Positions 15,022 to 58,737 of a DNA stretch of 64,000 bases are shown here, piece by piece (position 1 is the first letter of the stretch; every line of letters starts with the position of its first letter). A program made the position numbers and the translations under genes. The notes beneath the pieces are model-generated. The model did no database searches and was not told the DNA's origin. It saw only the letters and a program-made list of their open reading frames with translations. Location of the stretch: assembly GCA_030066045.1 (NCBI GenBank), contig JASJCJ010000001.1, forward strand, positions 1 through 64,000. Direction: 5' to 3'. Origin of the DNA: Calothrix sp. MO_167.B12. Lineage in GTDB: Bacteria; Cyanobacteriota; Cyanobacteriia; Cyanobacteriales; Nostocaceae.

Positions 15022-18000
15022 ATGTCTGCTGATTGGATGGATACTGCTTTATCACAATTAGAAGAGCAGATTAATAATTGCGAACAGGCGGTAGTTAGGT
15101 TTATAGAGGACAAAAAAATGAAGTCAGATAAATCTATGTCAACTGATAAAATTAACCGAAAATTGCACCACAATCCGATTGCCATTGTTGGCATGGCATC
15201 TCTATTTCCCGAAGCGAGAAATATCCAAGAATATTGGGAAAATATTGTTAATAAAATTGATTGTATTACCGATGTTCCAGCTTCCCATTGGAATGTAGAT
15301 GATTATTACGATCCTAATCCCAGAACCCCAGAAGATAAGACATATTGTAAGCGGGGTGGGTTTATTCCCTATGTTGATTTTAACCCCGTAGAATTTGGCA
15401 TTCCCCCCAATATTTTGGAAGTAACTGATGTTTCCCAACTCTTAAGTTTGGTGGTGGCGAAAGAAGCAATGGCTGATGCTGGCTATGGTTTGGAACGCCA
15501 ATTTAATCGGGAAAATGTGGGGGTAATTTTAGGTTCGGCGGCTCTGAAGTTGGGGATTCCCTTATCAGCAAGATTGCAATATCCAATTTGGAAAAAAGTC
15601 CTCAAAAGTAGTGGCTTATCTGATGAGGATACAGAAAAAATTATTGAAAAAATGAAGAGCGCCTACGTCAAGTGGGATGAAAATTCATTCCCCGGGATGT
15701 TGGCGAATGTGATTGCCGGGAGGATTGCCAACCGCCTCAATTTGGGAGGTATTAATTGTACCGTGGATGCAGCCTGTGCTAGTTCCTTAGCTGCCTTAAA
15801 AATGGCAATTGGGGAATTAGTAGACCATCGTTGCGATATGATGCTCACTGGTGGTGTAGATACTGATAATTCCATCACTGCCTATATTAGTTTCAGCAAA
15901 ACCCCGGCGGTTTCCCCTGGAGACACAGTTAAGCCTTTTGATGCCGAGTCTGATGGCATGATGTTGGGTGAAGGCATTGGCATGATGGTACTCAAGCGGT
16001 TGGAGGATGCCGAGCGAGATGGGGATAAAATCTACGCCGTCATTAAGGGTATTGGTACTTCCAGTGATGGTAGATATAAGAGTATTTATGCTCCCCGTAA
16101 GGAAGGGCAGGTAGCTGCATTGCGCCGCGCCTACGAAGATGCAGATATTGCTCCAGAAACCGTAACTCTAATGGAAGCTCACGGTACGGGAACAATGGCG
16201 GGAGATCCCACAGAATTTGGCTCTTTACGGGAATTTTTCGGGGAAACTGACTGCAAACGCCAGCATATTGCTTTAGGTACAGTAAAATCCCAAATTGGAC
16301 ATACAAAAGCAGCTGCGGGGGCGGCAAGTTTAATTAAAACAGCCTTGGCACTACACCACAAGGTGTTACCACCAACCCTGAATGTGAAAACACCAAATCC
16401 CAAACTCAATCTCAAAGATTCTTCCTTCTATTTAAACACCGAAACTAGGCCTTGGATTCGGGCAGAGGGACAATCCCCGAGAAGGGCGGGTGTGAGTTCC
16501 TTTGGTTTTGGGGGAACTAATTATCATGTGGTGTTGGAAGAATATCAAGGAGAACATGAAAAAGCTTATCGTTTAAATAGTTCTGGTTCTGAGGTGTTGC
16601 TGTTTGCTGACAATCCAGCTCAGTTGGTACTCAAGTGTGAGGAGATACTAAATCAATTACAGTCAGAGCAGGGAGAAAAACACTATCTCAACTTAGTAGA
16701 GGCGTGTAAATCCCTAGAAATTCCTCAAACTGCTGCCAGATTGGGTTTTGTTGCCGATTCCTTGGCTCAAGCTTGTAAACTGCTGAAAATGAGTATGGAT
16801 TTGTTGAAAAATAAATCCTCAGCAGAAGCTTGGGAGCATCCCCAAGGAATTTATTACCGTGCTACTGGCATGGAATTGGGTGGTAAGGTAGTAGCTTTAT
16901 TTTCTGGGCAAGGTTCCCAATATCTAGAGATGGGTAGGGAAGTAGTAATGAACTTCCCTCAAATGCGGCAGATGTATGGTTATATGGATGGCTTGCTGCT
17001 GCAAGAAAACTTAAAGCCATTGTCAGAAGTGGTATTCCCCCATCCCGTATTTACTGAGGAGGAAAAAAACAATCAAGTTGCTGCACTACAACGGACAGAA
17101 TATGCCCAACCTGCCATAGGAATGTTGAGCGCTGGTTTGTACAAAATTCTCCAGCAAGCCGGGTTAAAACCAGATTTTGTTGCCGGACATAGCTTTGGTG
17201 AATTAACGGCATTGTGGGCAGCAGGAGTACTAACTGATGAGGATTATTGCCTACTGGTGAAAGCTAGGGGACAGGCAATGGCAGCACCCCAAGATCCTCA
17301 CTATGATACGGGAACCATGTTGGCGGTGAAGTCAGAATTGAGTAAGGTTGAGGCTATTCTGAAACAGTTTCCTCAAGTTGCGATCGCTAATCTTAATTCT
17401 CCCACACAAGTGGTGTTGGCGGGTCCCACGGCGGAAATTCACCGGGTGAGGGATGTGTTGCACGAGCAAGGTTGTACGGCGGTATTGTTACCGGTGGCGG
17501 CTGCATTCCACACTCCCCTAATTGCTTTTGCTCAGAAATCCTTTGCTATAGCAATTAAGGATATGGAGTTCCATACTCCCCGGGTACCTGTATATAGTAA
17601 TGTGACAGGGAAGGAATATCCCCAAACAGCAGCAGAAATTCAGAAGATTCTGGAAACTCATATTGCCAATTCTGTGTTGTTTAAGCAAGAAATTGAGAAT
17701 ATTTATGGTGCGGGGGGTTACTGTTTTATTGAATTTGGTCCTCGGAAGATTCTGACTAACTTGGTGAAGGATATTCTGGGTGAGCGTCCCCACATGGCCA
17801 TTGCTTTGAATCCTAGTGCCCAGAAAGATAGCGATCGCTCCTTGCGTCAAGCTGTGGTACAGTTACGGGTAGCTGGTTTATGTTTGCAAAATCTCGATCC
17901 CTATTATGTACCTCAGTCTGTTCCGAAGCAGGAGCAGAAGAAGGGGTTGAAGTTCCAGCTAAATGGGATGAATTATGTGTCTGATAAGACTAAACTGGGT

Positions 18001-20592
18001 TTTGAGCAGGCTTTGGGAAATGGCCATCAGGTAAAGGTTTTATCTAATGGTAAGGGTAGTATTTCTCCTGAGTTGGTGTCTTTGAATGGGAAAAATGGCG
18101 TTGGAAAATCAAGTAATGAGAGGCTCACGCAGAGGAGCCATAGCGTTGCGGAGGTTTCCTCCGTTGTAGCGAATGGCGTGCGCGGAGGCGCAGAGGGAGA
18201 GAGAAGAGTTGAGAGTAATGGTGTTGGAAAATCAAATCATCAGGAGTTAGTGCAAGGTACTCCAGATAAAGAGGAAGTAAAAATGATGGAGAAGAATGGA
18301 GTGAGTCCAAAGGTAGATAGTTTTCAGGAGACAGGTAAGGCTAAGATTACTATTGCTGATTTGGAACCAACTCAGTTATCTCAGGTGTCTCCAACCGTTT
18401 CTGCTTCTGTTCCTTCAATTCCTCGGTTAGATATGCAAAGTACAGAGAAAGTTGTTGGTTATCAAAGAATTTTATCTAGTCTGGAGTATGTGCTAACTCA
18501 GTTTCAACAAAATCAAAGTGAGAATTTACAGGTTCACAGTAATTATCTCCATCATCAGGTAGAGTATGCTCGCAGCTTTTTCCAATTGATGCAGCAGCAG
18601 AATGTTTTGTTTGGGAAGGATGAGTCTGCATCAAATATGGCGGAGTTGAAGTCTACGATTATTGATAGTTTAAATCGTAGTATGCAGCAATTCCACAGTC
18701 AGCAGGGGGATACTTTACGGGTACATGAGCAGTATTTACGAGAGCAGGTAGAATATACGAAAAACTTTTTCCAACTGCTGCAACAGGAGTATGCTCAGTT
18801 GATGGCGGTGGAAGATAGTGGAGAAGTAATGGTTGCCAGGGAATTAGGGTTGGCAAACCCAACCCCTACAGTCAATCAACTTCCCCATACTCCCCCAGAA
18901 AGTAAGTTGACACCTGTTACTCCTGTTGCCAAACTGTCGCCAACTACATCAGCAATAGAAGAGAAAGAGAAATCAGTGGTTGCTCATCCCCAGGTATGGG
19001 AAAGTCAAGGGAAATCTGAAGTTAAGAATGGTGCTACTGCGGTGATGGAAGTTGTAGCAGCACCAACACCAACGGTAGGGGAATCAGAAACCACTGTCAC
19101 CGTGGAAGAAACTGTAGCGGTGAATGCACAGATAAATATACCTGTTGCTGAACCTGTGGCGGTGGATTTGAGCAATTTGTCTGAGAATCTGTTAGCCATT
19201 ACCAGTGAGAAAACTGGTTATCCAGTAGAGATGTTGGAATTGGATATGGATATGGAAGCAGATTTGGGAATTGATTCCATCAAGCGGGTGGAAATTATGG
19301 GAGCATTACAAGAGATGTACCCAGACTTACCCAAGCCGGAAAATGTGGAAGAATTGGGAGAGTTGCGTACCATTGCTCAAATTGTTGACTATCTCCAGTC
19401 TTTGGCAGCTAAGTCTGGTTCTGAAACTACGGTAACTCCAGGGGTAGAAACTCCCACCGTCAGCGAACCTGTAATTGAACCTACCATTGAACTCACGCCC
19501 CTGGTAGAAGAGGTTGCTGTGAACCATGTTACTACCCCCATAGAGGAAACAGTAGGGGAACCTGTAGCAGTGGATTTGAGTAACTTATCTGAGAATTTGT
19601 TAGCCATTACCAGCGAGAAAACTGGTTATCCAGTAGAGATGCTGGAATTGGATATGGATATGGAAGCAGATTTGGGAATTGATTCCATCAAGCGGGTGGA
19701 AATTATGGGAGCATTGCAAGAGATGTACCCAGATTTACCCAAGCCAGATAATGTGGAAGAATTGGGAGAGTTGCGTACCATTGCTCAAATTGTTGATTAT
19801 CTCCAGCAACTAGCAACCGGAGAAAAAAAAAAGTCCCAACCCCAATCTCCTAGCCAATCAAACCAGGTAAAGCATAACGTTAAACGGCTGCCAGCTAAAC
19901 TGCAAACCCTTCCCGAACCGGATTTTTGGGACGTAACATTACCAGAGGGACACATTGGTTTAATTACCGATGATGGTTCCCTCACCACCTCCAAAGTGGC
20001 AGAGAATTTGATTGAGCGTGGGTGGAAAGTAGTAGTGTTAAGTTTTCCTCCCTCCCTAGTTTCCCAACAATCTGCCTTACCCCCAGGAGTCAACCGCATT
20101 ACCTTACAAGACTTAAGCGAAACACATTTACAACAACAACTAAATGCGATCGCAACTAATTATGGTAATGTGGGAGGATTCATACACTTGCATCCGGTAT
20201 TTGGTAGTAAGCCTAACGCTACAGTACCTTACTTCCCGGAGGAGAAAGCAATTGTCAAACACATCTTCTTGATGGCGAAACACCTGAAAGGGTCCCTCAA
20301 CCAAGCCGCAAATAGAAATGGACGTAGTTGTTTCTGTACTGTAGCGAGATTAGATGGTGCTTTTGGATTAGAGCAGAAAGTCCACTTTGGAGCCATTGGT
20401 GCTGGTTTATTTGGGTTAAGCAAGAGCATGATTTGGGAATGGGAAAAAGTATTCTGTCGAGCAATGGACATTAGTCCTGATATTAATGCTCAAGATACAG
20501 CCCATCATATTATTGCAGAATTGCATGACCCTAATCGTTATCTTACTGAAGTCGCTTATGGTTCCCAAGGGAGAGTTACTCTGACAGCCTGA
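15022..20592 (+). CDS. hglE: HglE-type polyketide synthase (KS-AT-ACP-ACP-half KR)
   Basis: 1856 aa. Ketosynthase about 48-510 with Cys252 in DAACASS, His387 in EAHGTGT and His427 in IGHTKAAAG. Acyltransferase about 625-930 with Ser724 in GHSFGE. A variable linker follows (about 985-1380) that carries two copies of a helical motif, YLxxQVEYxxxFFQL (about 1175 and 1250). Two almost identical acyl carrier proteins have their phosphopantetheine serines at 1419 and 1555 (LGIDSIKR). The last 210 residues look like only the structural half of a ketoreductase; no NADPH glycine loop or catalytic Tyr is present. In Anabaena HglE is needed to make the long-chain alcohol of heterocyst glycolipids. The other hgl synthase genes (hglB, hglC, hglD) are not in this window. 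Confidence 0.9.
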   Translation: MSADWMDTALSQLEEQINNCEQAVVRFIEDKKMKSDKSMSTDKINRKLHHNPIAIVGMASLFPEARNIQEYWENIVNKIDCITDVPASHWNVDDYYDPNPRTPEDKTYCKRGGFIPYVDFNPVEFGIPPNILEVTDVSQLLSLVVAKEAMADAGYGLERQFNRENVGVILGSAALKLGIPLSARLQYPIWKKVLKSSGLSDEDTEKIIEKMKSAYVKWDENSFPGMLANVIAGRIANRLNLGGINCTVDAACASSLAALKMAIGELVDHRCDMMLTGGVDTDNSITAYISFSKTPAVSPGDTVKPFDAESDGMMLGEGIGMMVLKRLEDAERDGDKIYAVIKGIGTSSDGRYKSIYAPRKEGQVAALRRAYEDADIAPETVTLMEAHGTGTMAGDPTEFGSLREFFGETDCKRQHIALGTVKSQIGHTKAAAGAASLIKTALALHHKVLPPTLNVKTPNPKLNLKDSSFYLNTETRPWIRAEGQSPRRAGVSSFGFGGTNYHVVLEEYQGEHEKAYRLNSSGSEVLLFADNPAQLVLKCEEILNQLQSEQGEKHYLNLVEACKSLEIPQTAARLGFVADSLAQACKLLKMSMDLLKNKSSAEAWEHPQGIYYRATGMELGGKVVALFSGQGSQYLEMGREVVMNFPQMRQMYGYMDGLLLQENLKPLSEVVFPHPVFTEEEKNNQVAALQRTEYAQPAIGMLSAGLYKILQQAGLKPDFVAGHSFGELTALWAAGVLTDEDYCLLVKARGQAMAAPQDPHYDTGTMLAVKSELSKVEAILKQFPQVAIANLNSPTQVVLAGPTAEIHRVRDVLHEQGCTAVLLPVAAAFHTPLIAFAQKSFAIAIKDMEFHTPRVPVYSNVTGKEYPQTAAEIQKILETHIANSVLFKQEIENIYGAGGYCFIEFGPRKILTNLVKDILGERPHMAIALNPSAQKDSDRSLRQAVVQLRVAGLCLQNLDPYYVPQSVPKQEQKKGLKFQLNGMNYVSDKTKLGFEQALGNGHQVKVLSNGKGSISPELVSLNGKNGVGKSSNERLTQRSHSVAEVSSVVANGVRGGAEGERRVESNGVGKSNHQELVQGTPDKEEVKMMEKNGVSPKVDSFQETGKAKITIADLEPTQLSQVSPTVSASVPSIPRLDMQSTEKVVGYQRILSSLEYVLTQFQQNQSENLQVHSNYLHHQVEYARSFFQLMQQQNVLFGKDESASNMAELKSTIIDSLNRSMQQFHSQQGDTLRVHEQYLREQVEYTKNFFQLLQQEYAQLMAVEDSGEVMVARELGLANPTPTVNQLPHTPPESKLTPVTPVAKLSPTTSAIEEKEKSVVAHPQVWESQGKSEVKNGATAVMEVVAAPTPTVGESETTVTVEETVAVNAQINIPVAEPVAVDLSNLSENLLAITSEKTGYPVEMLELDMDMEADLGIDSIKRVEIMGALQEMYPDLPKPENVEELGELRTIAQIVDYLQSLAAKSGSETTVTPGVETPTVSEPVIEPTIELTPLVEEVAVNHVTTPIEETVGEPVAVDLSNLSENLLAITSEKTGYPVEMLELDMDMEADLGIDSIKRVEIMGALQEMYPDLPKPDNVEELGELRTIAQIVDYLQQLATGEKKKSQPQSPSQSNQVKHNVKRLPAKLQTLPEPDFWDVTLPEGHIGLITDDGSLTTSKVAENLIERGWKVVVLSFPPSLVSQQSALPPGVNRITLQDLSETHLQQQLNAIATNYGNVGGFIHLHPVFGSKPNATVPYFPEEKAIVKHIFLMAKHLKGSLNQAANRNGRSCFCTVARLDGAFGLEQKVHFGAIGAGLFGLSKSMIWEWEKVFCRAMDISPDINAQDTAHHIIAELHDPNRYLTEVAYGSQGRVTLTA
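18094..18235 (+). repeat. In-frame repeat insertion inside the hglE linker
   Basis: AATGGCGTTGGAAAATCAA at 18094-18112 recurs with one change at 18217-18235, exactly 123 bp (41 codons) later. Between them lies sequence that looks like a dispersed intergenic repeat (CACGCAGAGGAGCC, a CGGAGG-TTT-CCTCCG hairpin at 18149-18163, GGCGCAGAGGGAGAG). It is translated in frame as an Arg/Ser/Val-rich stretch. Confidence 0.7.
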
Positions 20593-47796: not shown

Positions 47797-48191
47797 CACT
47801 AGGGACAGTTTTACAAGTTGCCGATGCTCTGGAAGAGTGGGGCTACACGTACTAAGTCCGCCTACGCGGACTAGGAAAAATTAGGGTTTTTAGTCTGCAT
47901 AAGTGGACTTTGATAGTGTAGCCCCAAGCTACTTTGCTCCAAGCCGCCTTTGGGGTCTATAGCCTGTTGGCGCAGTCTGCCGCAAGCTTGGGTTTTAGGG
48001 GTTTGAAAACACGCCCTAGGGTTAAAGGTTAGGGCAAATTGAGAGTCCAGAATGAATGCTTGGTAAACCTTTCCCTCCTGATCTGATTTCTGCCTCCGGC
48101 TCTCGCTGCCTGATTCAAACAGATTGCAGATTTATCACAAATATTTACAATTTCCAAATCAGGGGATAATTTTTCCAATTTGTATGCAGAT
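47797..48191. other. Gap with small inverted element
   Basis: TGGGGCTACAC (47838-47848) and GTGTAGCCCCA (47916-47926) form an 89-bp MITE-like unit; inside is AGTCCGC-CTAC-GCGGACT, a 7-bp hairpin. A CTCCAAGCCGCC repeat follows. Promoter for the next gene is not obvious. Confidence 0.55.
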
Positions 48192-50771
48192 ATGAAAATA
48201 GCCTATCTAGTTAATCATTATCCTCATGTGAGTCATAGCTTCATCCGACGAGAAATTGTAGGTATTGAAGCTTGGGGAATTGAAGTCGCTCGGTTCTCCA
48301 TTCGTCCCTGTACCTCTAAATTAGTTGACGAAGCAGACAAACTAGAACTAGAGAAAACTCAATCTATTCTTGGTATTGGTATTCTCAGCATATTCTTAGT
48401 TGTAATTCAAGTTTTCCTCACTAAACCCATTTCCTTTCTGAGAAGTTTACAGCTAACTTGGAAAATAGGCTGGCATTCAGACCGAGGAATTGTCAGAAAT
48501 TTAGCGTATCTGGTTGAAGCATGTGTGCTTCTGATTAAATCGTCAGATTTGGGAATAACCCACATTCACGCTCACTTCGGTACTAATTCAACTACAGTAG
48601 CGATGCTTTGTCATGCTCTAGGTGGTCCATCTTACAGTTGTACCATTCATGGTCCCCAGGAATTTGACAGAGCTACTGTTCTTGCTTTAGATGAGAAAGT
48701 TAAACGAGCATCTTTCGTAGTAGTTATCAGTTCCTTCGGTAAGAGTCAGTTATATCGATGGTGCGATCGCCAATATTGGTCAAAAATTCATGTAATTCAT
48801 TGCGGCGTAGATGAAAAATTCTTGCGCGAATATGAGACTCCGATGTCAGAAGAGCCTCGTCTAGTTTGTGTTGGTAGACTGGACGAACAAAAAGGACATT
48901 TACTTTTAATCGAAGCAGCAGCTAAATTAGCCGCTGAAGGATTAGATTTTAAATTAGTATTTGTTGGTGATGGTTCTTTGAGAGGTGAGATTGAAACTGC
49001 GATCGCTCAACTGAATTTACATGATCACATTGAGATTACTGGTTGGGCTAGTAGTACTCAAGTGCGAGACCAAATATTAGCTGCACGAGCCTTAATATTA
49101 CCTAGTTTTGCTGAAGGTTTACCAGTAGTAGCAATGGAAGCCTTAGCTTTAGGCCGTCCAGTAATCAGTAGCCGTATTGCTGGGGTTCCTGAATTAATTG
49201 AGCATGAAAATTGCGGTTGGTTGGTAACACCCGGTTCATTGGAAGATTTAACAGCAACTATGGGTGAGGTATTGCAGTTACCAGTAGAAAAACTCAAACA
49301 AATGGGTGAAACCGGGAGTAAACTGGTTGCTCAACGGCATAATATAACAACCGAGACGGGGAAATTAGCAGAACTATTTTGGTGTAAAGATATTTCCCTC
49401 ACAATCAAATCAGCTATCTCAAGCAAATCATCAAGCACCCTCAAAAAAAAAGCTATTAATGCTACTATTTGGACTATTATTGCGTATTTTGGCGGTCATG
49501 TAATTAGATTTGGAACTAATCTCATTCTGACTCGCTTACTAGTTCCAGAGTATTTTGGTTTGATGGCTTTAATAAATACTTTTATGTCTGGGTTACAAAT
49601 GTTCTCAGATATTGGTGTTGCTCCTAGTTTGATCCGAAATAAACGCGGTGACGAACCTGATTTTTATAATACAGCCTGGACAATACAGATTATACGTGGA
49701 TTTGGATTGTGGCTAGCTAGTATATTAATTGCTTGGCCGATAGCAACATATTATCAACAACAACAGCTACTATGGTTAATTCCAATTGTTGGTATAAATG
49801 CTTTGATGAATAGCTTTCAATCGACCAGTAAATTTACTCTCCAACGCCATTTAGAACAGAGTAAACGAACAATATTTATTATTATAGGGGTAGCATACAG
49901 GAACATTATCACCATCACATGGGCTTTATTAAACCCTACAATTTTGGCAATTATTGGTGGTAGTTTAATCTCAGGATTAATAGATATTTTTCGTAGTCAT
50001 AAACTGATTCCTCAAATATCCAATCGCTTTACCTGGGATAAAAATGCTGCTAAAGAAATTTTTTCCTTTGGTAAGTGGATATTTATATCTACAGCAATGA
50101 CATTTTTGGCAATGCAATATGACAAGCTAACACTGCCAAAATTATTTTCTTTTGAAATGCTGGGTGTTTATACCGTTGCTTTTACCCTCGCAGAAATGCC
50201 CAAACAGATAATTGCTGGGATTAGTGGAAATGTCATTTTTCCTATAATTGCCAAATTTCAAGATTTACCCCGCAAACAACTAAGAGAGAAAATTATAAAG
50301 AAGCGGTGGCTATTACTAATTGGCATGGCACTTGTTGTGTCTCTGGTAGTTTGTTTTGGCGATCTGCTCATCTTGACACTATACGATAACAGATATAAAG
50401 ATGCTGCTTGGATGTTGCCAATTTTGTCCTTAGGAATGTGGCCGGCCCTACTACCAATGACAAATGCTAAATCTCTAATAGCTATTGGTAAGCCTATATA
50501 TATCGCTATTGGCAATTTCGTTAAATTTATTTATATGTTTATTGGTATACAATTAGGATTTTCTCTAATGGGAATTTTGGGAGTCATAATCGTTATTGCT
50601 TTTAATGATCTACCTGTTTATGCAGTAGTCAATTATGGTCTTTGGAAAGAAGGTCTAACAGGAATATGGCAAGATATTATGATAACATTATTTCTAATCT
50701 TATTAATATTTTGCATTGTATTTTGTCGCTATTCCCTAGGATTTGGATTACCAATTAATGGTATTTTGTGA
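48192..50771 (+). CDS. Glycosyltransferase (GT4) fused to Wzx-type flippase
   Basis: 859 aa from ATG 48192 (MKIAYLVNHYPHVSHSFIRRE, the usual GT4 opening). Residues 1-405 are a whole GT4 enzyme: HIHAHFG, VGRLDEQKGH, and the donor site EGLPVVAMEALALGRPVISS. A 15-residue Ser/Lys linker follows, then from about 418 a complete MOP-superfamily flippase with about 12 spans (LKKKAINATIWTIIAYFGG, ILTRLLVPEYFGLMAL, PKQIIAGISGNVIFPIIAKFQ). Nine A residues (49443-49451) encode the junction. I know of such proteins as separate enzymes. One chain could add a sugar to the lipid-linked repeat and pass it to the flippase on the same membrane face. Confidence 0.88.
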   Translation: MKIAYLVNHYPHVSHSFIRREIVGIEAWGIEVARFSIRPCTSKLVDEADKLELEKTQSILGIGILSIFLVVIQVFLTKPISFLRSLQLTWKIGWHSDRGIVRNLAYLVEACVLLIKSSDLGITHIHAHFGTNSTTVAMLCHALGGPSYSCTIHGPQEFDRATVLALDEKVKRASFVVVISSFGKSQLYRWCDRQYWSKIHVIHCGVDEKFLREYETPMSEEPRLVCVGRLDEQKGHLLLIEAAAKLAAEGLDFKLVFVGDGSLRGEIETAIAQLNLHDHIEITGWASSTQVRDQILAARALILPSFAEGLPVVAMEALALGRPVISSRIAGVPELIEHENCGWLVTPGSLEDLTATMGEVLQLPVEKLKQMGETGSKLVAQRHNITTETGKLAELFWCKDISLTIKSAISSKSSSTLKKKAINATIWTIIAYFGGHVIRFGTNLILTRLLVPEYFGLMALINTFMSGLQMFSDIGVAPSLIRNKRGDEPDFYNTAWTIQIIRGFGLWLASILIAWPIATYYQQQQLLWLIPIVGINALMNSFQSTSKFTLQRHLEQSKRTIFIIIGVAYRNIITITWALLNPTILAIIGGSLISGLIDIFRSHKLIPQISNRFTWDKNAAKEIFSFGKWIFISTAMTFLAMQYDKLTLPKLFSFEMLGVYTVAFTLAEMPKQIIAGISGNVIFPIIAKFQDLPRKQLREKIIKKRWLLLIGMALVVSLVVCFGDLLILTLYDNRYKDAAWMLPILSLGMWPALLPMTNAKSLIAIGKPIYIAIGNFVKFIYMFIGIQLGFSLMGILGVIIVIAFNDLPVYAVVNYGLWKEGLTGIWQDIMITLFLILLIFCIVFCRYSLGFGLPINGIL

Positions 50772-50962
50772 TATAAAAAATGGATTAAAAATTACAAGAA
50801 ACGAGATTTTTCAAATATTATATATCAACTTATATCAAAATTGCTGTAAGTGAGATAGACCAATTACAGAGTGGCTTTTAAACCTTGGAATCTTAATTCG
50901 TTAATTCACCTCATAAACATCGAATCTGCTGTAATATATAAATCAATTAGCTATTTTTGAAT

Positions 50963-51853
50963 ATGAAATTACCCGGTTTTCTTATTATTGGTGCTGCAAA
51001 ATCAGGAACTACCAGTTTATACCAATACCTAAAGAAACATCCACAAGTGTATTTTCCTCCTAAAGATGCTAATCCATTATTAGGGAGTAAAGAGCCTAAT
51101 TTTTTTGGTGATGATAATAAGTATGCATTGGGAATACAAGCTTATGCTTCCTTGTTTAACAATGCCCAATCCTACCAGATTTGTGGAGAAGCATCAACAG
51201 ACTATACCAAATTATCAGAGTTTCCTCGAGCCGCAGAACGTATAGCAAAGACACTCCCCCATGTGAAGTTGATTTACATCATGCGACATCCTGTAGAGCG
51301 TGCATATTCTTATTATGTACATCTTCAACGTAATCAAAAAGTAGAAGAAACATTTGAGCAGCATATTCAAAGAGCAAACATTTGTTTGGATGGCAGCAAC
51401 TATATGATGCAAATCGAGCAATATCTTAAATTTTTCCCCAGAGAGTCTTTGTTATTACTGTTAATGGAAGAATTAATTCATAACCCTGCTCTAACCTTAC
51501 AGAATATTTGTCAATTTTTGTCCATTGATGATGGTATTGATTTAACCTTAGGTAACAAAATAATTGCTAATGCAGGTCGGAGTCATTTTAATGATAATAT
51601 TAGAGGAAAAATTACTGCACCATTCCGCTCAATTCCGGTACTAAATATAGCGGCAAAAAAAATACCCCAATCTTGGCGCGATCTAGCTTATTCAATGATT
51701 AAAGAGATGCCATTTGCTAAAAATATTCAACAACAATATTTACCACAACCAATGCTTCCAGAAACCCGCCAGCTTTTGTTAAATAAATTCAAAAAATCTA
51801 ATGAAGAACTAGCTGATTTTATGAAATATGACTTATCACATTGGTCTAATTAG
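50963..51853 (+). CDS. Sulfotransferase 1
   Basis: 296 aa from ATG 50963; a TTG 6 bp earlier is also possible. PAPS 5'-phosphosulfate loop GAAKSGTTSLYQYL (about 10-23), 3'-phosphate site RHPVERAYSYYVH near 110, Ser-X-Y region EASTDYTKL. Cytosolic, no membrane span. It moves sulfate from PAPS onto a sugar hydroxyl, most likely of the exopolysaccharide made by this locus. It is not closely similar to the other two sulfotransferases here. Confidence 0.88.
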   Translation: MKLPGFLIIGAAKSGTTSLYQYLKKHPQVYFPPKDANPLLGSKEPNFFGDDNKYALGIQAYASLFNNAQSYQICGEASTDYTKLSEFPRAAERIAKTLPHVKLIYIMRHPVERAYSYYVHLQRNQKVEETFEQHIQRANICLDGSNYMMQIEQYLKFFPRESLLLLLMEELIHNPALTLQNICQFLSIDDGIDLTLGNKIIANAGRSHFNDNIRGKITAPFRSIPVLNIAAKKIPQSWRDLAYSMIKEMPFAKNIQQQYLPQPMLPETRQLLLNKFKKSNEELADFMKYDLSHWSN

Positions 51854-51940: not shown

Positions 51941-53371
51941 ATGAGTCCCCAAGCACAACTTGTCATGATCCTCTGGTTGCCAGTTGTTCTTTACCTATTT
52001 ATTCGGTTTTCAGCTCAAAGGGCAGTTGTTATCAGCTTTATCGTGGCGTGGCTTTTTCTACCACAAAAAGCGGGATTTGCCTTTCCCGGATTTCCAGATT
52101 ATGAAAGGATGTCAGCTACTTGCTACAGTATATTGCTAGCTACATTTATTTTTGATATTCAACGCTTCCGCTCATTTAAATTTAGCTGGCTTGACTTACC
52201 AATGCTAATTTGGTGTGTATGTCCTTTTGCTTCTTCGATGAGTAATGGCTTGGGAGCTTATGATGGACTAGCACAATTACTGCAACAAACTGTATCCTAC
52301 GGAATACCTTATTTTCTTGGTCGTATATACCTAAATAATCTAGTTGGATTACGCCATTTAGCAATTGCAATATTCACAAGTGGGTTAATTTATGCTCCTT
52401 TATGCATATATGAAGCTCGTATGAGTCCAGTGTTTCATCGAATGGTTTACGGTTACGTTGATGTAAGAGCTTTTGCTCAGGGATTTCGTTACGGGTCGTT
52501 TAGACCGACGGTATTTATGCAACATGGTCTTGCAGTTGGTATGTGGATGATGGCTGCAACATTTATTGGAATCTGGTTATGGCAATCTGGGGTAATCAAG
52601 CAAATATGGGGCATTCCCATGATGTGGTTAGTTGCGGGATTATTAGTCACATTCGTAATAGTTAAATCAACTGGTGCATATTTCTATTTGTTGTTGGGAT
52701 TAATTATTATGTTTGTTGCCAAAAAATTTCGTACTGCTTTGGCAATGTTATTAATCATTGCGGCTATGTCTTCTTACTTATATATGGGGGCAAGTGGAGC
52801 ATTTACTAGCGATCGCATTGAGGGGGTTGTCTCGGCTTTAGAAGTTATAGTTGAGCCAAGTCGAGCTTCATCTTTAGGATATAGAATGAGTAATGAAGAA
52901 TTACTCTCAGAAAAAGCACGGCAACAGCCAATTTTGGGTTGGGGAGGTTGGGGAAGAAACCGTGTATATAAAGAAATTTGGACAGGTGAGTTGGTAAGTA
53001 TAGCAATTACCGATAGCTTATGGATTATTGCCTTTGGTATTAACGGATCGGTAGGTTTAATTGCTTTATTTAGTTCTTCCCTACTACCTGCTGTAAGTTT
53101 TTTCTGGTTAAGGTATCCAGCCAAATCCTGGTTTAAAACTGAAATTGCACCAGCAGCAGTATTATCAACGGTTACAACCTTATATATGTTGGACTGTACT
53201 TTAAATAATATGCCAAATCCAGTGTTTACACTAGCAACCGGGGGTATTGCGGGATTAGTACTTAACAAGACAGAAACTCAAAAACTAGCAAGTCGTTCAT
53301 CCCCAATTCGTCGTTCTTTACCTCGGTCACAGATAACACCTTCTTTAAAACCAAACAAAGTAAGATATTAA
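51941..53371 (+). CDS. O-antigen polymerase/ligase-like membrane protein (Wzy type)
   Basis: 476 aa with about 11 spans, starting at residue 5. A large extracytoplasmic loop between about 295 and 360 carries ...ILGWGGWGRNR..., the pattern seen in WaaL/Wzy-type proteins of the O-antigen ligase group. It would join repeat units on the outer face after flipping. It lies 87 bp after the sulfotransferase gene and 10 bp before the next GT gene. Basic, unstructured tail (RSSPIRRSLPRSQ). Polymerase versus ligase cannot be told from sequence. Confidence 0.8.
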   Translation: MSPQAQLVMILWLPVVLYLFIRFSAQRAVVISFIVAWLFLPQKAGFAFPGFPDYERMSATCYSILLATFIFDIQRFRSFKFSWLDLPMLIWCVCPFASSMSNGLGAYDGLAQLLQQTVSYGIPYFLGRIYLNNLVGLRHLAIAIFTSGLIYAPLCIYEARMSPVFHRMVYGYVDVRAFAQGFRYGSFRPTVFMQHGLAVGMWMMAATFIGIWLWQSGVIKQIWGIPMMWLVAGLLVTFVIVKSTGAYFYLLLGLIIMFVAKKFRTALAMLLIIAAMSSYLYMGASGAFTSDRIEGVVSALEVIVEPSRASSLGYRMSNEELLSEKARQQPILGWGGWGRNRVYKEIWTGELVSIAITDSLWIIAFGINGSVGLIALFSSSLLPAVSFFWLRYPAKSWFKTEIAPAAVLSTVTTLYMLDCTLNNMPNPVFTLATGGIAGLVLNKTETQKLASRSSPIRRSLPRSQITPSLKPNKVRY

Positions 53372-53381
53372 TCAATGAGTG

Positions 53382-54578
53382 ATGTATAAAAATTTGAGAA
53401 TTCTATACGCCGCTGGTCCAGGGAACGTGATTGGTACTTATCAATATTGGATTCAAGGAGAGGACGATCCATCCCAGGTTTCAGTTACCTATTCTAGTCA
53501 ATTCTACGATGTTTGTCGTGATTTAGATGCACAAGCTTATGTAATTTCATCCCATAGAGATCGACAGTTGTTACATGATGGTAAATTTACCATAGAACAT
53601 CGTCCATTCCCTATACCTAAAGCATCGGGTCTTCTATACCACTTAGTTAATTTCTGGTATGGTTTAGGGATAATTATCTCGGCAGTTCGTTTTCAAGCTA
53701 ATGTTATCGTAGTAGCTGATGGCACAGCGCACTGGTTTCTCTTTTCCTTACTACCTTGGTTGGGAATTAAAGTTATTCCTTCACTACACTGCGTACTTTG
53801 GTGCAAGTATCTTCCACAAAGCAAGATAAATAGATTATTCCTAAAGCTTAGTCATCACCTATTTGCTCGCCAATCCACCGCAATTATGGTTGCATCAAGT
53901 GATATTGAGAAACAGATAGTACAGATTACTACCAATCAACATCAACCAATAGTAGAATTTTTACCATTATATCGACGTTCAGAGTTTGCAAGAGTAGGTA
54001 AACCAGATGAAAAACATTTACCTTTTAGAGTGTTATTTGCAGGTCGCATTGAGCCAAATAAAGGTGTTTTTGAACTTCTGGAAATTGCCAAGAGTTTCCA
54101 GTCACAAGGTAGACAGGATATTGTGTTTGATATTTGTGGAAATGGTTCTGCACTAGAGGATTTATGTTTAGCAGTCGAGAAAGCAAACATAAATTCTTTA
54201 TTTGTGTGTCATGGTCATTGTAATAAAGCACAAATGCAAGAAATGTTTAACCAGGCACATGTTGTTATTGTGCCGACAAAAACAAATTTTGTAGAAGGCT
54301 TTAACCAGGTTGTTGCGGAAAGTATTTTATCTGGTCGTCCTGTTATTACTTCAGCAGTTTGTCCAGCTTTATCTTATGTGCGAGAAGGAGTTGTAGAAGT
54401 GCCACCAGATGACATTAAAAGATATGGTGATGCTTTACTAAAATTATCCCATGATCTCCATTTCTATAAACAAAAGCAACAGGCTTGTCTAGGTTTACAA
54501 GAACAATTTTATGATGTGTTCCAAAGTTGGGGAGCTAAACTCAAGTCTATTATTATGGATATTCAGGATAGTAAATAA
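53382..54578 (+). CDS. Family 4 glycosyltransferase
   Basis: 398 aa from ATG 53382 (GTG at 53379 would add one residue). GT-B: an N-terminal acceptor half (LRILYAAGPGNVIGTYQYW) and a donor half with LFAGRIEPNKGVFELLEIA near 210 and EGFNQVVAESILSGRPVITS near 305. A hydrophobic patch at about 90-145 could insert in the membrane. Starts 10 bp after the polymerase gene. Acceptor and sugar unknown. Confidence 0.86.
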   Translation: MYKNLRILYAAGPGNVIGTYQYWIQGEDDPSQVSVTYSSQFYDVCRDLDAQAYVISSHRDRQLLHDGKFTIEHRPFPIPKASGLLYHLVNFWYGLGIIISAVRFQANVIVVADGTAHWFLFSLLPWLGIKVIPSLHCVLWCKYLPQSKINRLFLKLSHHLFARQSTAIMVASSDIEKQIVQITTNQHQPIVEFLPLYRRSEFARVGKPDEKHLPFRVLFAGRIEPNKGVFELLEIAKSFQSQGRQDIVFDICGNGSALEDLCLAVEKANINSLFVCHGHCNKAQMQEMFNQAHVVIVPTKTNFVEGFNQVVAESILSGRPVITSAVCPALSYVREGVVEVPPDDIKRYGDALLKLSHDLHFYKQKQQACLGLQEQFYDVFQSWGAKLKSIIMDIQDSK

Positions 54579-57747: not shown

Positions 57748-58737
57748 ATGCTCAATAACCCACTACACTTACTCATAGTTATTGTTAACTATAGAACGCC
57801 AGATTTAACCATCGACTGCTTACAATCTTTAGTTAACGAAGTGCGATCGCTCCCCGGAACCCGTGTTATTGTTACCGATAATGCTTCCGGTGACGATTCA
57901 GTTGACAAAATTCAAACTGCTATTGAAAACGAAAGTTGGCAAGATTGGGTATCCTTCATGCCACTAGAACATAATGGTGGTTTTGCATTTGGTAATAATG
58001 CTGCAATCCGTCCGGTTATAAATTCTCCTACTCCCCCAAATTACGTTCTCTTACTTAACCCAGATACTATAGTTCGTCCTGGTGCTTTAAAAGTACTTAT
58101 GGACTTTATGAAAGAACATCCCCAAGTAGGAATTGCTGGTAGTCGTCTAGAAGATCCTGATGGTACTCCCCAAGTTTCTGCTTTTCGCTTTCATTCTATC
58201 CTCAGCGAACTCAATGCAGGCTTACGTCTACGATTTGGTAAAAAGTTCAAAGAACGTTGGGCTGTTATCCCCCCTACCCTTCCCCAAGAAATTACCCAAG
58301 TTGATTGGGTAGCTGGAGCCAGCATGATTGTGCGCCGTCAAGTATTTGAACAGGTCGGTGTAATGGACGAAGGATACTTCATGTACTATGAAGAGGCTGA
58401 TTTTTGCTTGCAAACTAATAGGGCTGGTTGGACTTGCTATTATGTCCCAGAGAGCCGAGTAGTACATTTAGTCGGTCAAAGCTCTGGAGTTACCGACCCT
58501 AAAGCTCCACGCAAACGTCTTCCGCAGTACTGGTTTGATTCTCGGCGACGTTACTTTGTCAAAAATCACGGTTGGCTGTATGCATCGTTAGCAGATGCTG
58601 CTTTTGCTTTTCCTTTTGCCCTGACCAAATTACGTTGGATGCTGATGGGACAACGTTCTAATTATCCACCAAATTTTTTGATTGATTTTATCCGCAATAG
58701 TGCGATCGCCAAAGGATTTATTCAATCCCCACAATAG
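57748..58737 (+). CDS. Family 2 glycosyltransferase, rhamnosyltransferase type
   Basis: 329 aa. Cytoplasmic GT-A with VIVNYRTPDLTIDCLQSL at the start, DNASGDDS, the acceptor/metal region LLLNPDTIVRPGALKVL and WVAGASMIVRRQVFEQVG, then EADFCLQTNRAGW. This pattern is characteristic of WbbL-like rhamnosyltransferases. A short hydrophobic helix near 275-292 may touch the membrane. The acceptor is presumably the lipid-linked repeat unit. The last 55 bp overlap the long ORF of the next gene, whose true start is downstream. Confidence 0.88.
   Translation: MLNNPLHLLIVIVNYRTPDLTIDCLQSLVNEVRSLPGTRVIVTDNASGDDSVDKIQTAIENESWQDWVSFMPLEHNGGFAFGNNAAIRPVINSPTPPNYVLLLNPDTIVRPGALKVLMDFMKEHPQVGIAGSRLEDPDGTPQVSAFRFHSILSELNAGLRLRFGKKFKERWAVIPPTLPQEITQVDWVAGASMIVRRQVFEQVGVMDEGYFMYYEEADFCLQTNRAGWTCYYVPESRVVHLVGQSSGVTDPKAPRKRLPQYWFDSRRRYFVKNHGWLYASLADAAFAFPFALTKLRWMLMGQRSNYPPNFLIDFIRNSAIAKGFIQSPQ

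Follow-up and report, generated by a model that had tools for sequence, protein, structure and literature searches.

A GT4 glycosyltransferase and a Wzx flippase in one open reading frame of Calothrix sp. MO_167.B12: a probable lineage-specific gene fusion

Results

The window, that is, the whole stretch of DNA analysed here, comprises 64,000 nucleotides of Calothrix sp. MO_167.B12. From the ATG at 48192 to the stop codon ending at 50771 one frame runs uninterrupted through a GT4 glycosyltransferase (GT), a linker and a Wzx/MOP flippase (Table 1); a TTG at 48180 shares this frame. The initial annotation had read the gene as a single chain carrying both proteins, and this is confirmed by the open frame and by the Pfam domains lying in one chain. 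It had also predicted a product of about 97 kDa, and the mass computed from the sequence, 96.1 kDa, is near that value. In what follows, labels beginning with G, C and L are our own for genomes, contigs and loci.

Table 1. Features of the fused gene and of the genes downstream of it, in window coordinates.
Feature	Position	Strand	Extent	Basis and remarks
Fused gene (GT4 glycosyltransferase + linker + Wzx/MOP flippase)	48192..50771	+	859 aa	ORF, Pfam, alignment history
GT4 half	48192..49379	+	residues 1-396	keeps 68 of 69 columns invariant among 17 GT relatives (alignment)
Linker	49380..49451	+	residues 397-420	alignment to MO_192.B10 (L038) and C. rhizosoleniae (L039)
Candidate deletion joint	49385..49390	+		about 105 bp of L038 absent in window; TAA flanks the missing piece in L038
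Lost wzx start codon	49416..49427	+		ATG in L038 and L039; ATC followed by nine inserted bases in window
Wzx half (SSSTLKKKAINATIW...)	49428..50771	+	residues 413-859	keeps 50 of 50 columns invariant among 29 Wzx relatives (alignment); PF13440, PF01943
A9 run	49443..49451	+	three Lys codons	possible slippage site; nine mixed bases in sisters
Sulfotransferase gene, next in cluster	50957..51853	+		PF13469, PF00685
Wzy-like polymerase gene	51941..53371	+		no Pfam match; 50% identical to pSYSM gene at xssF position
Second GT4 gene of cluster	53379..54578	+		PF00534; no match to pSYSM locus L054 at E 1e-5
GT2 gene	57748..58737	+		45% identical to GT2 of xss cluster

Residues 216-377 of the GT half match Glycos_transf_1 (PF00534; E 2.8e-35, 121.8 bits against a cut-off of 26.4). 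The E-x7-E donor motif is a hallmark of GT4 enzymes; it is present here as E308 and E316, and these two residues, together with H126 and H128, are invariant across the 18-row GT alignment. By profile and donor motif, the first half is a GT4 glycosyltransferase. It also spans positions 1-384 of 389 of the EpsE family GT4 profile (NF041876, E 8e-64) at 216 bits against a cut-off of 400, so that an EpsE equivalog is not called. By near full-length profile matches, the second half is a Wzx/MOP flippase: Polysacc_synt_3 (PF13440) covers residues 445-738 with profile positions 1-291 of 293 (E 4e-47), and Polysacc_synt (PF01943) is matched over positions 5-274 of 274 (E 6e-20). That both halves are complete, as had been proposed, is borne out by these spans and by the invariant residues. 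Wzx/MOP flippases have 12-14 membrane helices, compared with 10 hydropathy peaks found by a simple scan of the Wzx half. The AlphaFold model of the fused protein, built on a 6-row alignment only, has a mean pLDDT of 42. The GT half contains one strongly hydrophobic stretch (residues 59-77, 48366-48422; mean hydropathy 2.64), through which the GT may contact the membrane by itself.

The own start codon usual in a stand-alone wzx, an ATG at all of the 19 distinct loci of relatives described below, is absent from the window gene. Between 49302 and 49560 the fusion frame contains no ATG, GTG or TTG. The ATG at 49302 is residue 371, inside the GT half and 47 codons ahead of the A run, and the TTG at 49560 is residue 457, preceded by 44 residues of the Wzx half; judged from these positions, a separate Wzx start at either is unlikely, and so is a start at the rare codon ATC in the position of the former ATG. 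The other two frames are closed upstream by stops at 49366 and 49385, and between these and the A run they contain no start codon, in agreement with the earlier statement that neither frame offers the flippase a nearby start. The place given there for the beginning of the Wzx part, LKKKAINATIW, is roughly right. The sister flippases begin a few residues earlier, at M-SSSTLK and M-SSNTFK, and the window retains the residues of these N-termini but without their start codon.

A search of the genus covered three genomes, the window's own and those of the congeners Calothrix sp. MO_192.B10 (L038) and Calothrix rhizosoleniae SC01 (L039). Both congeners carry direct orthologues of the two halves (GT 91% and 82% identical, Wzx 75% and 74%, respectively), and in both these are two genes: a GT of 422 aa (L038) or 421 aa (L039) with its stop is followed by a spacer of 59 or 104 nt and then by the wzx ATG of a flippase of 454 or 450 aa. 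The sulfotransferase frame adjoining the pair in MO_192.B10 (L038:8778-9658) matches the window protein in two frames and looks frameshifted. All three genomes have a second GT4-wzx pair, paralogous to the fused halves (about 36% and 47% identity), and in each it consists of two genes (L058, G000:C250; L057, G001:C225; L059, G002:C166). A frame of 1003 aa computed at the paralogous pair G001:C225 was rejected, because a TAA follows the GT and the same place was elsewhere computed as 462 aa; thus, computed frame lengths can be too long.

When the window was aligned with MO_192.B10, it could be seen that, first, the missing piece of about 105 bp comprises the stop of the GT gene together with its tail and the larger part of the spacer. 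With L038 as the reference, this piece begins after an out-of-frame TAA within the GT and ends at a TAA in the spacer. Secondly, the wzx leader is still recognisable downstream of the joint (ATTTCCCTCACAATCAAA in the window versus ATTTCCCTTACAATCAAA) and is now in frame. Thirdly, the wzx start codon is gone, and the nine bases inserted there precede the conserved Ser-Ser-Ser-Thr. The linker is accordingly made up of the remaining GT tail, the former 5' leader of wzx in frame and the former Wzx N-terminus. These features suggest a route in which two co-oriented neighbours in an exopolysaccharide cluster, a GT4 gene (XssI-like) and a flippase gene (XssH-like), would have lost the roughly 105 bp between them, taking along the GT tail, stop and most of the spacer; the former wzx leader would then have turned into a linker about 24 residues long, with loss of the wzx start codon, now redundant.

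Trees were made from 18 GT rows and 30 Wzx rows. Each fused half is sister to its MO_192.B10 counterpart (98/95), then to that of C. rhizosoleniae in a Calothrix group (100/100). Since the congeners have two genes and both halves are nested in the Calothrix group, the fusion is derived and, as far as sampled, unique. The Wzx half shows no acceleration, its tip length being 0.10 in the fused line versus 0.23 in L038; for the GT half, the fused line has a slightly longer tip than L038 (0.059 versus 0.041). With the NG86 method, the Wzx half has a dN/dS of 0.26 in comparison with L038 and of 0.16 with L039, and the GT half 0.12 and 0.13; the YN00 values are 0.25 and 0.18 (Wzx half) and 0.17 and 0.17 (GT half). 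For the window's own Wzx branch a dN/dS of about 0.15 was derived from three pairwise values. These ratios and the tip lengths, which span the time before the fusion too, point to purifying selection on both halves, with no look of decay. Nucleotide identity between the window and L038 is uneven along wzx (0.62 to 0.94), a partly mosaic look that may be due to recombination.

It might be asked whether the fusion, though real in the DNA, is neutral or damaging, so that the GT half works while the Wzx half, its task covered by another flippase, is carried along as a tolerated or decaying passenger. Its restriction to one lineage fits this explanation, as a fusion that is not conserved offers no proof that it functions. 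The genome contains 7 PF13440 matches including the fused gene, and another PF13440 flippase (L004, G000:C79:85945-86829) is located on the same contig about 35 kb beyond it; with 7 such matches, loss of the fused flippase might be tolerated. However, the Wzx half runs through 443 codons without a stop or frameshift and has kept every invariant residue, its tip branch is short, and the sulfotransferase and Wzy-like frames downstream are open. We consider this explanation unlikely, although it deserves some weight.

An assembly or sequencing error, behind which the true genome would have two genes, seems improbable. The fusion is known from one draft genome (321 contigs, 2.24% contamination), the only one available for the species. 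However, an error would have to produce the missing piece of about 105 bp, the changed start codon and the nine inserted bases together. Moreover, the spacer of MO_192.B10, a query that matched the genome of origin (G002, positive control) at 100%, was not found anywhere in the window's genome assembly; the same query also failed to match the diverged spacer of C. rhizosoleniae (G001). The count of nine A residues, finally, agrees with both sisters, which have AAACGACAA (L038) and AAACAGAGA (L039), nine bases each, at the position of the run. Nine bases in all three species mean that nine A keeps the ancestral wzx frame across the run; a run of 8 or 10 A would put the conserved residues before and after it in different frames. 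A homopolymer indel as the cause is therefore rejected on the evidence of the sisters and of the closed state of the other frames, and the earlier opinion that a simple sequencing indel is a poor explanation of the fusion holds.

With one base more or fewer at the A9 run, the chain ends 2 or 16 residues after it, and the products are GT4 proteins of 422 or 436 aa. The run, which neither sister has, sits in the linker, and in Thermus thermophilus dnaX slippage on nine A gives about half short product, as reported in the available portion of PMC1088944, in which no mention of cyanobacterial or Synechocystis slippage was found. A/T runs of at least nine are not enriched in the window (2 observed versus 4.8 expected under an order-1 model). 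It is thus a long shot that the gene has two products, the fused chain and free GT4, made by RNA polymerase slippage or by phase-variable replication slippage at A9, and we give equally little credence to a one-chain protein whose transport domain takes over the lipid-linked product of the GT domain while slippage sets the ratio of tethered to free GT. Another possible slippage site, an A10 run at 19823-19832, was noticed inside a polyketide-synthase-like frame of 1856 aa (15022-20592).

Further GT4-Wzx chains were sought with the Wzx half as query (E up to 1e-60) in an order-level sample of 243 genomes including the window's own. Matches were obtained in 63 genomes at 68 listed places; besides the window's, 66 places have frames of 445-481 aa and one (G049) a frame of 590 aa. 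In two phylum-level samples (244 and 292 genomes, overlapping with each other and with the order sample), 50 genomes matched PF13440 at E up to 1e-30 and 84 matched PF01943 at E up to 1e-22, the latter cut-off being stricter than the window gene's own 6e-20, so that this gene could not appear. Up to 7 (order), 9 (PF13440) and 8 (PF01943) best candidates were scored per genome. At these strict cut-offs no second GT4-Wzx chain was found among the best candidates of the 243 order-level and the 244 and 292 phylum-level genomes. Long flippase frames in G304 (973 aa), G280 (743), G275 (714 and 621), G289 (710) and G302 (551) were inspected by eye and rejected, as no GT4 was seen in frame upstream of the flippase; in G304, G275, G289 and G302 the additional residues had the look of GC-rich frame noise, and in G280 the frame seemed to continue across an unknown base into a methyltransferase-like stretch downstream. 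The G049 match (contig C41, L053:2693-4420), from another cyanobacterium, is a 576-aa chain with an N-terminal FHA domain (PF00498, E 5e-17). Like the fusion, it has a soluble domain ahead of a flippase of the same family, but the added domain is FHA instead of a glycosyltransferase; through this domain the Wzx might be brought to a phosphorylated partner. Two flippase genes of the same family stand in tandem in G202:C61 (14302-15630 and 16052-17299, L043).

A table was also made of the loci in which wzx is directly preceded by a homologous GT. The 24 rows, less three from the window (L002, L008, L041) and two that repeat L038 and L039 (L009, L010), leave 19 distinct loci, among which L003, L020 and L022 have a distant GT paralogue (34-36%), L011 and L030 match part of the GT only and the copy in L056 is broken. 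At all 19 the GT ends in a stop and wzx has an ATG of its own, the two lying 2 to 583 nt apart. The expectation that the fusion would recur in several cyanobacteria thus failed, both here and in the genome samples, and homologues that are always two genes, which the initial annotation had counted as evidence against its proposal, are what was found as regards conservation. A conserved coupling device is unsupported by these comparisons, and the fusion appears to be the derived state of one genome. Outside Cyanobacteriota, coverage consisted of plasmid records and one locus of unstated phylum (L040). Among the 30 best of the 61 matching plasmid records, six cover at least 80% of the query and all six are cyanobacterial; five of them (H1-H5) have two genes by annotation, and H6 matches in pieces without annotated genes. 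On a Synechocystis sp. B12 plasmid (L056:4471-7018) the xssI and xssH homologues lie in five pieces with no annotated gene, as if broken.

Among the matches listed, the best plasmid relatives with both halves were Allocoleopsis pMIC7113.02 and Synechocystis pSYSM. The latter carries the synechan (xss) cluster of Synechocystis PCC 6803, in which XssI (GT4) and XssH (Wzx) stand in the same gene order as in the window and are 52% and 52-53% identical to the GT and flippase halves; there they are two genes separated by a stop and 2 nt, whereas the window has one gene. The xss letters were assigned from the cluster order in the consulted part of PMC8205485. When 15 window frames were compared with the pSYSM locus (L054) by tblastn, the homologues of XssI, XssH, XssF and XssB and the sulfotransferase (34%) all matched. 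No XssG homologue was seen, the second GT4 gene having no match to L054 at E 1e-5; the same is true of several other genes of the window. By these comparisons, the likeness of the locus to the xss cluster is partial. Further downstream in the window are two frames with sub-cut-off sulfotransferase matches, one weak GT match, and genes for a nucleotidyltransferase and a DegT-type aminotransferase. The cluster is of the Wzx/Wzy type and probably makes a sulfated exopolysaccharide.

Discussion

Taken together, the above results suggest, with a probability of roughly 0.66, that the window contains a real, lineage-specific gene fusion that arose by loss of about 105 bp between a GT4 and a wzx gene. 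Its parts are known ones, which appear newly combined in one lineage, and reading the gene as encoding a one-chain protein is likely to be right.

Wzx N-termini are cytoplasmic, and with such an N-terminus a GT fused to it would be topologically sound. The gene would be translated as one 96-kDa chain in which the GT half, on the cytoplasmic face and ahead of the flippase, adds a sugar to a lipid-linked intermediate and the flippase half carries the finished unit outward. If both activities persist in the single chain, the cell would produce GT and Wzx in a 1:1 ratio and next to each other, and this may help the lipid-linked unit pass to the flippase. Coupling between export and sugar addition, proposed in the initial annotation for the last sugar added in the cytoplasm, is plausible. 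As a lead only, slippage at A9 could add free GT4 as a short product. We infer a role of the fused protein in making a sulfated exopolysaccharide of the Wzx/Wzy type.

According to the consulted part of PMC8205485, loss of xssI in Synechocystis, where xssI and xssH are the apparent orthologues of the two halves, leaves blooms in place with little EPS, and loss of xssH abolishes both bloom and EPS. This indicates that the Synechocystis flippase is not strictly dependent on the XssI GT. Contacts of a terminal GT with Wzx and Wzy were sought by two-hybrid assays in Rhizobium leguminosarum, with the galactosyltransferase PssJ and the flippase PssL, which, unlike the window fusion, are separate proteins; in the accessible part of that report the authors call the results for PssJ with Wzx/Wzy ambiguous and state that later steps are not blocked when the terminal sugar is missing (PMC7589315). 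Our literature search covered GT-flippase contacts and fusions and cyanobacterial EPS, mostly outside subscription journals, and no natural GT-Wzx fusion was described among the matches listed, as judged by titles and the beginnings of abstracts.

From the same portion of PMC7589315, physical contact of cytoplasmic GTs with the flippase in Wzx/Wzy pathways looks unsettled. If the Calothrix fusion works, a tethered GT would be compatible with flipping, and the gene would be a ready tool for coupling tests in a tractable host. The fusion also documents a route by which such a chain may originate, through loss of a stop and spacer and then of the second start codon.
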